The notes beneath the pieces are model-generated. The model was not told the DNA's origin. It did not search any database and saw only the letters and a program-made list of their open reading frames with translations. From Bacteroidota bacterium (GTDB lineage Bacteria; Bacteroidota; Ignavibacteria; UBA10030; BY39), in assembly GCA_030017895.1 (NCBI GenBank), contig JASEGV010000027.1, positions 1 to 38,174 on the forward strand: a stretch of DNA of 38,174 nt. Reading direction: 5' to 3'. Positions within the stretch are counted from its first letter, which is position 1. Every line of letters starts with the position of its first letter. The position numbers and the translations under genes were made by a program. Positions 1,543-11,394 of this stretch are shown piece after piece.

Positions 1543-4500
1543 ATTGGTAAGGTGATAATAAATGTAGTTCCTGTATCTTTATTTGTAATAAACGAAATCG
1601 CTCCACCTGAATCATCAATCGTTTTTTTCACAATAGCTAACCCTAATCCCATTCCGTCGGTTTTTGTAGAAAAGTTTGGTTCAAATATTTTGCTTTTTAT
1701 TTCGTCTGAAATTCCCTGACCTGTATCGTGAATATTTATCTGAACATTTTTATCAACTTGTTCTACGATAACAGACACAGTCCCCTGTTCATTCATAGCT
1801 TGAATCGAATTCCGGATGATGTTAATAAAAGCACGCCGTAATTCTTCTTTGTCTGCGTTCACTCGAAATTCATTTTCAGAGCTATTAAATTTGAAATTAA
1901 CGTTTTTGTATTGTTCAAAGAGATGGATTGCTTCTTTGAGAATTTCGTTAAGATCGCACTTTTCTATTTTTCGGAATGGCAAACGTGCAAAGTTCGAAAA
2001 CTCAGAGGCAATTCTTGTAAGTGTTTCGACCTGTTCAGTAATCATCGACACTCCCTTCTTCAATATATCATCAAAATTATCGGCTTTATCTTTATACGCT
2101 TGTTGAAGATGTTGTACTGCTAATTTTATTGGCGTAAGCGGATTTTTAATTTCGTGTGCAACTTGTTTCGCCATTTCTTTCCAGGCTAATTCTTTTTCGT
2201 ATTTTATTAACTCTTCTCGTTTTTGTTTTATTTCGTCAATCATCTCATTGAAGGTCTGTTCAAGTTTACCAAGTTCATCGGTGCGTGTAAATGGTATTTT
2301 GTAATCATAATTACCTTCCCCAACCTGTATTGCTGCATCTGTCAACCGGCGAATTGGTTTTGATATTTGTCCAGCGAAAAAGATACCGAGTAAAAATGCG
2401 ATTAACAATACTACCGTATAAACTCCTAATAAATATGCATTTCGTTCTTGCAAATCTTCCTCGATACTCGCCTGATTGTAAAGTGTAGGAACGGCAATTA
2501 TTCCCACTAATTGATCTTGCTTATTTATTACAGCTTGATAACCGACTAAATACCCGAAAGTTCCTATCGCTTGCGATTCAACAAAAAAGTGCCTGCCTAA
2601 TATATTTATGTTGTAGTAAACATCAGGTGAGATTCGTCGATCAATAAGCTCAGCATCAAGCAGTTCCGGTTTACTGCTCGCTACGATTTCACCATTGCTG
2701 TATAAACTAAAATCTACTCCTGTGCTGGCAGCAATTTCGGATATCAGTTTATCATCGGGCAAAGGATCGGATTTCAGTGTGTAATATTTTTTGATATGTG
2801 AAAGGATTACGTCGGTTTGTTTTTCCAAATTAGTGCGATTTGTTTCGCTTGCCCGTTGTGTTGCAAACTCACGATTGTAGTAACTTATTACTATAATTGG
2901 AATTACCGACACCATAATGAAAGCTATCAGCAATTTTGTACGGAAATTGAATTCGAGTTTTCGCTTCCGATAACCAGCTATTCCTACCCACAACATAAAA
3001 TAAATACTACAACACACTACTAAAAAGAAAAGCAACAACCTTAGAAAATTCAAAACATCACTAACAACACCCCCTCTTTCTCCGCTTATTGCGATATATT
3101 TATTTGGTTGATCAACTGCCTTTACGTAAACCATTTCATAATTTTTACTGTCAACTTTTTCTTCAACGAAAAAACTTTTTTGACTTCTCAGCGAGGTATC
3201 CGATAAATAAGGCGACCGGTAAACACTCTCGAACTCCCGGTTGGATGTGTATATCCGCCAGTCATTAATATATTCTGAATAAAATAAATTTTTATAATAT
3301 GGTTTGAAGTCGAACCCTGTGTAAGTTTTTAGGATATCATACGAATCGCTTCGAAATAATTCACCTCGTACGGCAGTAACTTCCATTCGAACGCTTCCTG
3401 CGGGAGTTCCATCTTCAAAATATACCGGTGCATTACCAACATAATGTTTTACAAAACCATCCTCGTCTTCCCTGACCATAATCGATCGCGAAGTTGTTAT
3501 AATTGGTTCCTTCTCAATCGGTTCCATCGAACCGACTTGAAAATTACTTGCAATACGTGAGTCGCCATTAATAATTGTAATCCGACAATTGTAACCTTCG
3601 CGACTTAAAATAGTTTTTGCCCATTCAGTGAAAGCATAATTTTTTAAATCATCGTTCGATTTCAGACGATCTGCCGTTTCTTTTGTTGCGATTTGATTTA
3701 ATGCCTCGTCTATCATAAATGCAATCCAGTTATCTACAGGACGAGCAACTTCGCTTGCATACGATTTTAACTTTGAACGCATATCAATTTGTACGGCTGC
3801 GAACAGAAAATAAGCTGCCAACAAAACCGCACTCAAGCTAAACACAAGTGCATTCTTTTGGTTGATTGCTTGACCTCGTATGATGAATTTTTGTGAAAGA
3901 ATCCCAAGTATTAACAAACCGGATACTATCAAACTTCTTTCGAGGTTAGATGTAAGTGGATTAGGATGAAGTTCGCCGTAAATAAAACTGGCTGCTATAA
4001 ATATCCCGAAAACAGACAGCCAGCCGAGGTAGTTATTTTTATTCCAATATGAATAAAGAATTAACAAGGTTGAAAGCAAAACAAAAGCTGCCGAAATTAA
4101 AAACAAACACAAATACATTATCAACAATACGAAAGGTGGAAATGCAGGATCGATGTAGCTCAAACTTGAATCAAACACCACACTGTGAGTAATAGCCACA
4201 TATCCTCGTAAAAGAAAAAGAAAAATGAATGAAAAAATAATTGTGATACTTAGCGAGATTACACGGTTTAAATTTAAGTTGTTATTTTGATTAATAAATT
4301 TTACGGCATAGTATCCGATATAAACAATGCTGGTGATTAGAATGATTGAGGTAATCAGCAATTCACCTATGGATTTTGCAACACCAAATCCAAAACCCGA
4401 TGCAAAATATGACGGATCGAATATGCTTATTGGGAACAAGCCGGTTGGAAAATCGATAGCAAGCCAGAGAAACCTAACAATCCATAAAACTGCGACGGCA

Positions 4501-9055: not shown

Positions 9056-9601
<546 letters not shown>

Positions 9602-9645
9602 TTAAAAATAAAATGCCTCAAGCTCCGCAATTGGAACTGAGGCAT
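9602..9645 (-). terminator. Intrinsic terminator-like hairpin in the pyrR leader
   Basis: Read on the minus strand, ATGCCTCA (9638-9645) pairs with TGAGGCAT (9613-9620), and five further inner pairs form past a bulged base, closing a 6-base loop. The stem is followed at once by TTTATTTTTAA. The tract ends just before the pyrR Shine-Dalgarno. That fits a pyr attenuator; alternatively it terminates the tRNA transcript. Confidence 0.7.
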
Positions 9646-9685
9646 GTTCTGAATTTTATTATTTGATTTTTTCATATTTTCCTTT

Positions 9686-9703
9686 CCTATCTCACTGAAT
9701 AGG
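9686..9703 (-). promoter_or_regulatory. Possible PyrR-binding hairpin
   Basis: On the minus strand CCTAT and ATAGG pair, then a U-G pair closes a six-base loop CAGTGA. This loop fits the CNGNGA hexaloop described for PyrR-binding RNA, and it lies 40 bases before the terminator hairpin. The wider consensus is only partly matched and I found no clear antiterminator pairing, so this is tentative. Confidence 0.4.
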
Positions 9704-9715
9704 TTTAAAGGTTAG

Positions 9716-9789
<74 letters not shown>

Positions 9790-9802
9790 AATTTTCGCTA
9801 TG

Positions 9803-9834
9803 CAAATTTATAGAAAATATACCCGAAAGGCAAA
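9803..9834 (-). promoter_or_regulatory. Bacteroidota-type promoter for tRNA-Val / pyr operon
   Basis: On the minus strand TTTG (9831-9834) is followed after 20 bases by TAAATTTG (9803-9810), matching the TTTG / TAnnTTTG pattern. The -7 element is about 13 bases before the tRNA 5' end. It is back to back with the mgsA promoter. Confidence 0.55.
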
Positions 9835-9837
9835 TAT

Positions 9838-9866
9838 TTGAAAGATAATTATTAAATACATATATT
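9838..9866 (+). promoter_or_regulatory. Promoter of the mgsA operon
   Basis: TTGAAA (9838-9843), 17-base spacer, TATATT (9861-9866). The mgsA ATG is only 9 bases after the -10, so the transcript would be almost leaderless. The same ATACATATATT context recurs at the other plus-strand promoter near 29806. Confidence 0.5.
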
Positions 9867-9875
9867 AAATCAAAA

Positions 9876-10322
9876 ATGGAAACTCGTATATTAAAATCTC
9901 ATAAGAAGATAGCCCTTGTTGCACACGACAACAAAAAAAATGATTTGATAGAGTGGGCGCGATTTAACAGAGGACTACTTGCGGAACATAAATTATTTGC
10001 AACGGGAACGACGGGACGACTATTAGAAAATGAACTCAATTTAGAAATTGTAAAATTAGAAAGCGGTCCCCTCGGCGGCGACCAGCAAATCGGGGCGAAG
10101 ATAGTTGAAGGCGAAATCGATTTTTTGATTTTCTTTTGGGATCCTCTCGAATCACTTTCGCACGACCCTGATATAAAAGCGCTGCTACGATTAACCGTCG
10201 TTTGGAATATACCCGTTGCCTGCAACCGCGCAACAGCCGACTTCATAATTTCCTCGCCGTTGATGTCGAACGAGTATGAAAGAGCAATGCCCATTTACGA
10301 AGACTATAAAAAACGGATGTAA
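9876..10322 (+). CDS. mgsA: Methylglyoxal synthase
   Basis: 148 residues, the usual size. It shows the MgsA pattern IALVAHDNKKNDLIEW, the phosphate-binding TGTTGRLL, GPLGGDQQIGAKI with the catalytic Asp, and FFWDPL near residue 86. It converts dihydroxyacetone phosphate to methylglyoxal plus phosphate in the cytoplasm, relieving phosphate stress from blocked glycolysis. It heads a plus-strand operon with asnA (10 bp gap) and an FAD-linked glycolate/D-lactate dehydrogenase-type gene. If the latter uses D-lactate, the operon would hold both ends of the methylglyoxal bypass (inference). Confidence 0.95.
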   Translation: METRILKSHKKIALVAHDNKKNDLIEWARFNRGLLAEHKLFATGTTGRLLENELNLEIVKLESGPLGGDQQIGAKIVEGEIDFLIFFWDPLESLSHDPDIKALLRLTVVWNIPVACNRATADFIISSPLMSNEYERAMPIYEDYKKRM

Positions 10323-10332
10323 TCGCAAATCC

Positions 10333-11394
10333 ATGCACAAACAAATCATTATTTCAAACGGCAAGCTAACACTCCCAAAAGGATACAAACCTTCCTTAAA
10401 TTTACGCACTACGGAAGAGGCAATAAAATTCATCAAGGATTTTTTTCAAATTAATTTAGCTAAAGAATTAAATCTAAAAAGAATCTCTGCGCCTATTATC
10501 GTATTAAGTAACACCGGTCTCAACGATAACTTAACGGGCACCGAAACACCGGTTAGTTTTAACGTTAAATCGATAAACGAAACGGCTGAAATTGTTCAAT
10601 CGTTGGCGAAGTGGAAACGTAACGCTCTTGCCGACTATGGATTCAAATACGGCGAAGGACTTTATACCGATATGAATGCCCTGCGCCCGCATGAAATTCC
10701 AGATAATTTACATTCAATCTATGTTGACCAGTGGGATTGGGAAAGAATTATTAATGATAAAGAAAGAAATTTAGATTTCTTAAAAACTGTAGTTCGTAAA
10801 ATCTACAAAGTAATTAAACAAACCGAGAAAAAGGTTTGCAACAAATATGAACAGATAGGACAATCATTCCTCCCGACCAATCTACACTTCATACACAGTG
10901 AAGAACTTGAAAGTAAATACCCATCACTTTCGCCACAGGAACGCGAACATGCCATTTGCAAAGAAAAGGAAGCTGTTTTTGTAATCGGTATCGGTGCGAA
11001 ATTAAGCAACGGTTCACCTCACGACAGTCGAGCAGCCGATTATGATGATTGGTCAACCGAAACTCGAAATGGTTACAAAGGTTTGAACGGCGATATACTT
11101 GTTTGGAATCCTGTTCTCGGTCGTGCGTACGAACTTTCGTCGATGGGTATAAGAGTGAATAAAGATACCTTATTACAACAACTACACATTAAAGGTGAAA
11201 CAGCCAAAGTAAAATTATATTATCATCAGAGATTGTTAAAAGGAGAATTACCTCTGACTATCGGCGGCGGTATTGGACAATCAAGATTATGTATGTTCTT
11301 TTTAAGAAAAGCACACATCGGTGAAGTTCAGGCGAGTATCTGGACCAACGAAACAAGAGATATCTGCAAGAAAAATAATATATTTTTGTTGTGA
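10333..11394 (+). CDS. asnA: Aspartate-ammonia ligase (asparagine synthetase A)
   Basis: A class-II-tRNA-synthetase-like AsnA of 353 residues. It makes asparagine from aspartate, ammonia and ATP. Clear motifs are QSLAKWKR, GEGLYTDMNALRP, YVDQWDWE, DYDDWSTE, GLNGDILVWNPVL, ELSSMGIRV and GGGIGQSRL. The frame is open from 10276, but the family's N-terminus fits the ATG at 10333 and the longer form would overlap mgsA. The end overlaps the next gene by 4 bp if that gene uses its GTG start. Located in a window with many ammonia-releasing enzymes, though the operon link is to mgsA. Confidence 0.95.
   Translation: MHKQIIISNGKLTLPKGYKPSLNLRTTEEAIKFIKDFFQINLAKELNLKRISAPIIVLSNTGLNDNLTGTETPVSFNVKSINETAEIVQSLAKWKRNALADYGFKYGEGLYTDMNALRPHEIPDNLHSIYVDQWDWERIINDKERNLDFLKTVVRKIYKVIKQTEKKVCNKYEQIGQSFLPTNLHFIHSEELESKYPSLSPQEREHAICKEKEAVFVIGIGAKLSNGSPHDSRAADYDDWSTETRNGYKGLNGDILVWNPVLGRAYELSSMGIRVNKDTLLQQLHIKGETAKVKLYYHQRLLKGELPLTIGGGIGQSRLCMFFLRKAHIGEVQASIWTNETRDICKKNNIFLL

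Follow-up and report, generated by a model that had tools for sequence, protein, structure and literature searches.

A putative PyrR-controlled pyr leader behind a tRNA-Val gene in the Ignavibacteria order UBA10030, with a leader reading frame that spans the terminator

The window, by which we mean the whole analysed stretch of 38,174 nucleotides from a member of the Bacteroidota (class Ignavibacteria, order UBA10030), carries a tRNA-Val gene followed by a leader and the pyrimidine biosynthesis genes pyrR, pyrB and pyrC. The features of the locus are the following.

9833-9803, minus strand: promoter-like site TTG-N20-TAAATTTG, ending 13 nt upstream of the tRNA.
9789-9715, minus strand: tRNA-Val with anticodon CAC; the 3' CCA is not encoded.
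9711-9681, minus strand: putative PyrR binding loop, starting 3 nt after the tRNA end.
9686-9680, minus strand: Shine-Dalgarno sequence GAAAGGA of the leader ORF, mostly within the 3' strand of the PyrR loop.
9675-9592, minus strand: leader ORF of 27 codons, which spans the terminator and whose stop TGA overlaps the pyrR ATG (ATGA).
9645-9604, minus strand: intrinsic terminator hairpin and U-tract (UUUUAUUUUU), inside the leader ORF.
9595-9056, minus strand: pyrR, 179 amino acids, identified by profile match and alignment to solved structures.
9024-8104, minus strand: pyrB, aspartate carbamoyltransferase catalytic chain, identified by profile match.
8068-6785, minus strand: pyrC, dihydroorotase, with TIGR00857 above its cut-off and other dihydroorotase models matching below theirs.

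The pyrR product matched the profile NF003549 with 246.8 bits (cut-off 138) and aligned over nearly its full length to solved PyrR proteins, among them 1ufr. The database entry of the latter, which we take to be a Thermus protein, is entitled 'pyr mRNA-binding attenuation protein'. The TTG-N20-TAAATTTG motif, presumably a Bacteroidota-type -33/-7 promoter, recurs ahead of the tRNA in all four further loci of the window's family (f1), and its 20-nt spacing is repeated in three of the genomes (G001, G002 and G004). The tRNA sequence of the window has no second copy in the genome, the next matches reaching 82% over 59 and 78% over 72 bases. On the plus strand, divergent from the tRNA-pyr unit, an ORF for methylglyoxal synthase and a partly overlapping one for AsnA (aspartate-ammonia ligase) occupy positions 9876-11394.

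All elements of a PyrR site were found in the RNA behind the tRNA. The lower stem CCUUU/AAAGG (9711-9707 and 9685-9681) bears a purine-rich AAA bulge on its 5' side, and the upper stem CCUAUU/GAUAGG carries the hexaloop CAGUGA (9697-9692). A stem with a hexaloop of this CNGNGA type is kept across the order, and pyrR, pyrB and pyrC follow downstream. Judged by these elements, the putative protein-binding element is an ordinary PyrR site. The terminator stem (AUGCCUCA.../...UGAGGCAU) extends from 9645 to 9613 and is followed by a U-tract (9613-9604), by AAGAGG and by the pyrR ATG at 9595. Only 8 nt separate the U-tract from the pyrR start, which leaves no room for a separate pyrR promoter after the terminator, the arrangement that the earlier note had named as a refutation. 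The predicted fold of the RNA between 9714 and 9585 yields both hairpins with -28.4 kcal/mol, compared to a mean of -17.25 kcal/mol in shuffled sequences (z = -3.94; 0 of 200 shuffles as low). Sequence and fold thus confirm the hairpin with a CAGTGA loop and the terminator with a T-tract ending at the pyrR ribosome site that had been noticed earlier, and the upstream gene is indeed a tRNA-Val, ending at 9715. A simple terminator scan of positions 9500-9900 listed no terminator, probably because the stem is interrupted and the loop long.

The Rfam model RF00515 'PyrR binding site' aligned over its full length to positions 9715-9606, scoring 40.7 bits (E = 1.7e-4 when 271 nt were searched); alignment confidence was low in the middle, that is the antiterminator part. 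The score lies below the curated gathering cut-off of 54 bits, so that the leader is no member of the family as curated and is absent from the default Rfam listing of the whole window. In the 3.2-Mb genome it is the sole match above 25 bits, next to 11 weaker ones of at most 24.8 bits. Among 20 loci scanned the cut-off was reached by a single one, L012 (55.2 bits), and RF00515 at its cut-off misses leaders of such a type.

A search of 98 genomes of the order gave some PyrR match in 90, weak matches to other phosphoribosyltransferases included. Upstream DNA was taken from the 87 strong matches (E <= 3e-63) in 86 genomes, with the broken pyrR of G063 omitted. After the loop pattern had been widened to take in variant loops, a PyrR loop was found ahead of pyrR in 81 of the 87 loci; here as in the other counts, loci of near relatives are not independent. 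Three of the six misses have only a short upstream contig (40, 68 and 145 nt), and no loop was found in the three loci of family f2. Across 66 distinct loops, 96.4% of the upper-stem cells are paired. Both sides vary in five of the six pairs, a count that 3 of 500 shuffles reached. The stem has a covariation score of 0.463; shuffles gave 0.264, none of the 500 attaining the observed value, and slid partners gave no more than 0.107. The count of further pair types in the stem was not exceptional, 64 of 500 shuffles being as high. The lower stem, which is nearly invariant and was used for finding the loops, was excluded from the covariation count. The covariation rules out a chance match, and the conservation across relatives which the earlier note had asked for is borne out. 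Outside the order, the loop was present in all of the 11 best-scoring loci from a draw of 294 genomes of the class.

The earlier note had described the locus as a candidate PyrR attenuator. The loop, the terminator and the pyrR context support that description, but a leader ORF had been missed, and therefore the likely mechanism changes. The sequence GAAAGGA, composed of the 3' strand of the lower stem and its neighbours, is the complement of the 16S rRNA 3' end CACCTCCTTTC, an anti-Shine-Dalgarno sequence present in all four 16S ends examined. Such a match alone proves little, because the AAGG strand belongs to the general PyrR consensus; on the sequence level, the discriminating feature is a start codon after it. 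Of 81 leaders, 60 have an ATG no farther than 14 nt behind the loop, while random windows of the same leaders contained one in 12.8 cases on average and in 22 at most (500 draws). For the ORF ends we considered the first ATG or GTG located 1-12 nt after the loop, a codon present in 67 of the 81 leaders and lacking in 14. Of these 67 ORFs, 35 have their stop no more than 13 nt from the pyrR start (other frames 1 and 11; shuffles: mean 16.9, maximum 25, n = 300) and 32 end elsewhere. The frame stays open at least as far as the pyrR start region in 42 of the 67 leaders (15 and 29 for the other frames; shuffles: mean 24.3, maximum 34). The commonest end, observed in 15 of 67 leaders, is a stop beginning at the second base of the pyrR start codon, the ATGA type of the window. 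The 40 ORFs ending at pyrR (35 from the order, 5 from the 11 class loci) belong to leaders in which loop and pyrR lie 60 to 188 nt apart.

The signal differs between families. ORFs ending at pyrR were counted in 9 of 14 leaders of f3 (shuffles 2.5), 13 of 16 of f6 (shuffles 7.5), 7 of 14 of f5 (shuffles 4.3) and 2 of 4 of the window's f1 (shuffles 0.6; both from one genus); in f4 the signal is weak, with 4 of 19 (other frames 1 and 4; shuffles 1.7). Among all five loci of the window's family, the ORF ends at pyrR in the two of one genus, stops in the 5' arm of the terminator in two and has a long insert in one. The 27-codon open frame of the window, taken alone, is not improbable by chance. 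In eight ORF pairs that could be aligned, and which overlap, substitutions were spread as 45, 47 and 50 over codon positions 1, 2 and 3. There is no third-position excess and therefore no sign of selection on the leader peptide. The flat counts fit a leader whose translation, rather than its product, would matter, and are neutral on translation itself. The window has what a ribosome-coupled leader would contain, namely a leader ORF that reaches the terminator and a ribosome site in or beside the PyrR loop.

The comparison outside the order counted ATG starts only, as opposed to ATG or GTG in the order. An ATG leader ORF reading to pyrR was found in one of 13 Bacillales controls, in three of five Chloroflexota loci and in both Omnitrophota loci. 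The loop pattern found 9 loops in 40 'other Firmicutes' loci and missed L013, L016 and L021, whose upstream sequence visibly holds a loop; the loop counts beyond Bacillales, Chloroflexota and Omnitrophota are therefore lower bounds. In one Omnitrophota record (L022, upstream of position 3001), the leader frame continues in phase and without a stop into pyrR, which would place the terminator hairpin inside coding sequence.

The presence of the tRNA was assessed in order loci with a loop and at least 300 nt before it, counting same-strand tRNAs within 400 nt upstream. Such a tRNA occurs in 39 of 78 loci and is missing from the other half; in all 39 it is a tRNA-Val with anticodon CAC. By family, it was found in 5/5 loci of f1, 6/13 of f3, 18/29 of f4, 10/14 of f5 and 0/17 of f6. 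Three loci were not scored as tRNA loci, L115 with an N-interrupted tRNA, L095 with a tRNA cut by the contig end and L111 with a remnant. On a quick tree of the 87 PyrR proteins, where five of the six families each form one side of a branch and f3 needs two changes, the tRNA label needs nine changes. Named database records included four from the order: L009 (Bacteroidota bacterium C1_metabat.bin.52), with a PyrR 97% identical to that of the window, L010 (Bacteroidetes bacterium OS_PC_MetaG.mb.146), L011 (Ignavibacteria bacterium NC_groundwater_29) and L012 (Bacteroidota bacterium STD1_190). Upstream sequence was sufficient in 79 of the named-record loci, of which L009 and L010 carry the tRNA-Val. 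No same-strand tRNA was found within 500 nt upstream in any of the 76 loci other than L009-L012, a set judged free of order members by titles and similarity; two of them have a tRNA-Leu on the opposite strand. The 11 class loci likewise have no same-strand tRNA. In six loci (L150, L102, L161, L091, L114 and L101) the tRNA-Val upstream of the PyrR loop appears by eye to be split or duplicated, with tRNA pieces flanking an intact copy. Some of these loci hold palindromic inserts rich in GC (CCCGCC...GGCGGG), which give the impression that a small element has inserted itself into the tRNA.

The gap between tRNA and loop ranges from -1 to 155 nt; it measures at most 5 nt in 8 of the 39 tRNA loci, the window with its 3 nt included, and at most 35 nt in 24. 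Promoters were sought with a single self-chosen motif, TTG-N19..21-TAnnTT, within 60 nt before the tRNA or the loop. Where the gap is at most 35 nt, the motif precedes the tRNA in 20 of 24 loci and lies between tRNA and loop in none of the 24, in most of which it would not fit. Of the 15 loci with longer gaps, 7 have it ahead of the tRNA and 2 in the interval from tRNA to loop. Where no tRNA was called (L095, L111 and L115 included), 29 of 42 loci have it no more than 60 nt ahead of the loop. Random windows of the same loci contained the motif in 3.7 of 81 cases, at most in 10. The tendency of the motif to precede the tRNA if there is one, and otherwise the loop, supports a single transcript. 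The suggestion of the earlier note that the pyr leader may begin with a tRNA is thereby strengthened, and membership of the tRNA-Val in the pyr transcription unit is supported by this comparison.

A further element was observed in the sister family f4. There, 26 of 30 leaders have GTTCTTT at a distance of 10-16 nt ahead of the loop, with or without a tRNA (L176, L179, L167, L169, L166 and 21 more), mostly in the form GTTCTTTGA. It was found at this place in none of the 51 leaders of other families, the five of the window's family among them, and random windows contained it in 1.4 of 81 cases, at most in 5. The same element, as TGTTCTTTGAAAA, occurs 108-131 nt before the 16S primer site in all four rRNA leaders examined (f1, f3 and f4). 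This position is presumably where the rRNA antitermination element boxA is to be expected. Published examples of boxA upstream of non-rRNA genes include prsA (PRPP synthase) in three genera (PMC5725501).

The best explanation of the locus, to which we assign a probability of roughly two in three, is a tRNA-led transcript on which PyrR would hide the ribosome site of the leader ORF and a translating ribosome would keep the terminator open. Transcription would start shortly before tRNA-Val(CAC), cross the tRNA and continue into the pyr leader. With UMP in good supply, PyrR would bind the loop directly behind the tRNA. Because the lower stem holds the Shine-Dalgarno sequence of the 27-codon leader, binding would keep ribosomes off, the terminator would form and essentially the tRNA alone would be made. 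When UMP is scarce, PyrR would be released, a ribosome would translate the leader through the terminator sequence and the RNA polymerase would read on. The ribosome would stop on the pyrR start codon (ATGA) and could restart there.

This proposal has to be weighed against attenuation as in Bacillus, where the antiterminator arises from pairing between the 3' half of the loop and the terminator's 5' arm, and PyrR stabilises the loop as an anti-antiterminator; the leader ORF would then be incidental. Loop, gene order and terminator are the same in both cases, and partial complementarity exists in every family, reaching 9 pairs in two genomes of the window's family, G001 and G002. A pairing of at least 5 bases between the two segments is possible in 4/5 loci of f1, 7/13 of f3, 18/30 of f4, 11/15 of f5 and 11/13 of f6, but it matches the stability of the loop state in only 0, 0, 4, 2 and 1 loci, respectively. 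In the window, the alternative fold with the 5' half of the loop blocked reached -1.9 kcal/mol with 3 relevant pairs, compared to -8.5 kcal/mol for the loop state. It is thus worse by 6.6 kcal/mol, whereas a Bacillus-type antiterminator should be about as stable as the loop state: the 13 Bacillales controls had a median difference of 0.0, and the alternative was as stable in 7 of them. The much weaker alternative fold argues for a hidden leader ribosome site and against an antiterminator. Furthermore, the occurrence of leader ORFs in the order, their start position and their end point are above chance. The readout is probably different from the Bacillus antiterminator, and we consider the latter an unlikely account of the window; in loci with partial pairing, a mixed antiterminator and ribosome mechanism may operate.

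The overlap of the leader stop with the pyrR start, in the window as in relatives, would also suit a control of pyrR translation itself, with the leader ORF coupled to pyrR through the overlapping stop, PyrR mainly shutting off pyrR translation and the terminator in a secondary role. Two f6 species (G091 and G094, loci L152 and L156) speak in its favour: no U-tract terminator was found between loop and pyrR, a hairpin CCUCCG.../...GGAGG covers the pyrR Shine-Dalgarno sequence GGAGG, and the leader stop overlaps the pyrR start. In these leaders the same switch seems to act on translation. The terminator of the window is complete, with a U-tract, and a separate pyrR Shine-Dalgarno sequence (AAGAGG) lies outside the hairpin; translational control as the main function is improbable there. 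Still less credible, and in our view hardly to be expected, is that the hairpins merely terminate the tRNA while pyrR is read from a promoter of its own. Their place behind a tRNA gene would agree with such a role, but room for a promoter after the terminator is lacking, the conserved and covarying loop precedes pyrR also in loci without a tRNA, and where no tRNA was called the promoter-like motif mostly stands ahead of the loop.

Leaders of other lineages showed further arrangements. In six Kryptoniota-like records (L014, L015, L017, L018, L020 and L042), a visible PyrR loop is followed by CACCUCAC or a near form of it, complementary to GUGAGGUG in the 3' half of the loop itself; no U-tract terminator was seen by eye close to the loop in these records, which possibly use another readout. 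In L013, L016 and L021 (Melioribacteraceae, Ignavibacteriales and Bacteroidetes records), GUUGAC stands, as judged by eye, after a loop whose hexaloop is shortened, and is complementary to GUCAAU within the terminator's 3' half. This pairing is a possible antiterminator.

The surprise of the earlier note at PyrR attenuation outside Gram-positive bacteria was overstated, given that PyrR regulation occurs in Thermus. Van de Casteele et al., in J Bacteriol in 1997, reportedly proposed for Thermus strain ZO5 that the PyrR leader uses a translating ribosome and not an antiterminator. That scheme would match the ribosome coupling proposed for the window, which differs in coming from another phylum, in the tRNA-Val ahead of the leader and in a leader-ORF end at pyrR that is testable over an order. 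In Mycobacterium, PyrR represses translation and its binding hides a ribosome site; unlike there, the hidden site of the window would belong to a leader ORF containing the terminator and not to a structural gene. With the Bacillus pyr attenuator (RF00515) the window shares the CNGNGA loop, the purine-rich 5' bulge, the CCUUU/AAAGG lower stem, the terminator and the position before pyrR-pyrB-pyrC; it differs from it in lacking a competitive antiterminator, in having a leader ORF in its place and in scoring under the cut-off of the model. Mixed tRNA-mRNA operons are known from E. coli, where thrU-tufB and metY-nusA also have a tRNA at the 5' end of a protein-coding transcript, but in the window a putative metabolite-controlled attenuator lies directly behind the tRNA. 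RF00515 is among the motifs covered by a published survey of several phyla (PMC3766115). A partial literature search yielded, by title or abstract opening, no report of a tRNA ahead of a PyrR leader, and no paper on both Ignavibacteria and pyrR. Compared with these systems, the unusual parts of the putative switch are its ribosome-coupled readout and the recurrent tRNA-Val heading the transcript.

A wider interpretation can be offered tentatively, and we hold it to be somewhat doubtful as a whole. A stable-RNA promoter would drive both tRNA-Val and the pyr genes, maturation of the tRNA 3' end would set the mRNA 5' end at the PyrR loop, and PyrR would decide between the tRNA only and the tRNA together with the pathway. 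In this manner, pyrimidine synthesis might be coupled to how fast stable RNA is transcribed, and in f4, via boxA, to rRNA antitermination as well. If the proposed mechanism is true, PyrR control through a translating ribosome instead of an antiterminator, reportedly proposed for a single strain, becomes testable across an order, and a metabolite-controlled attenuator on a tRNA transcript would link the transcription of stable RNA to the supply of its own building blocks.
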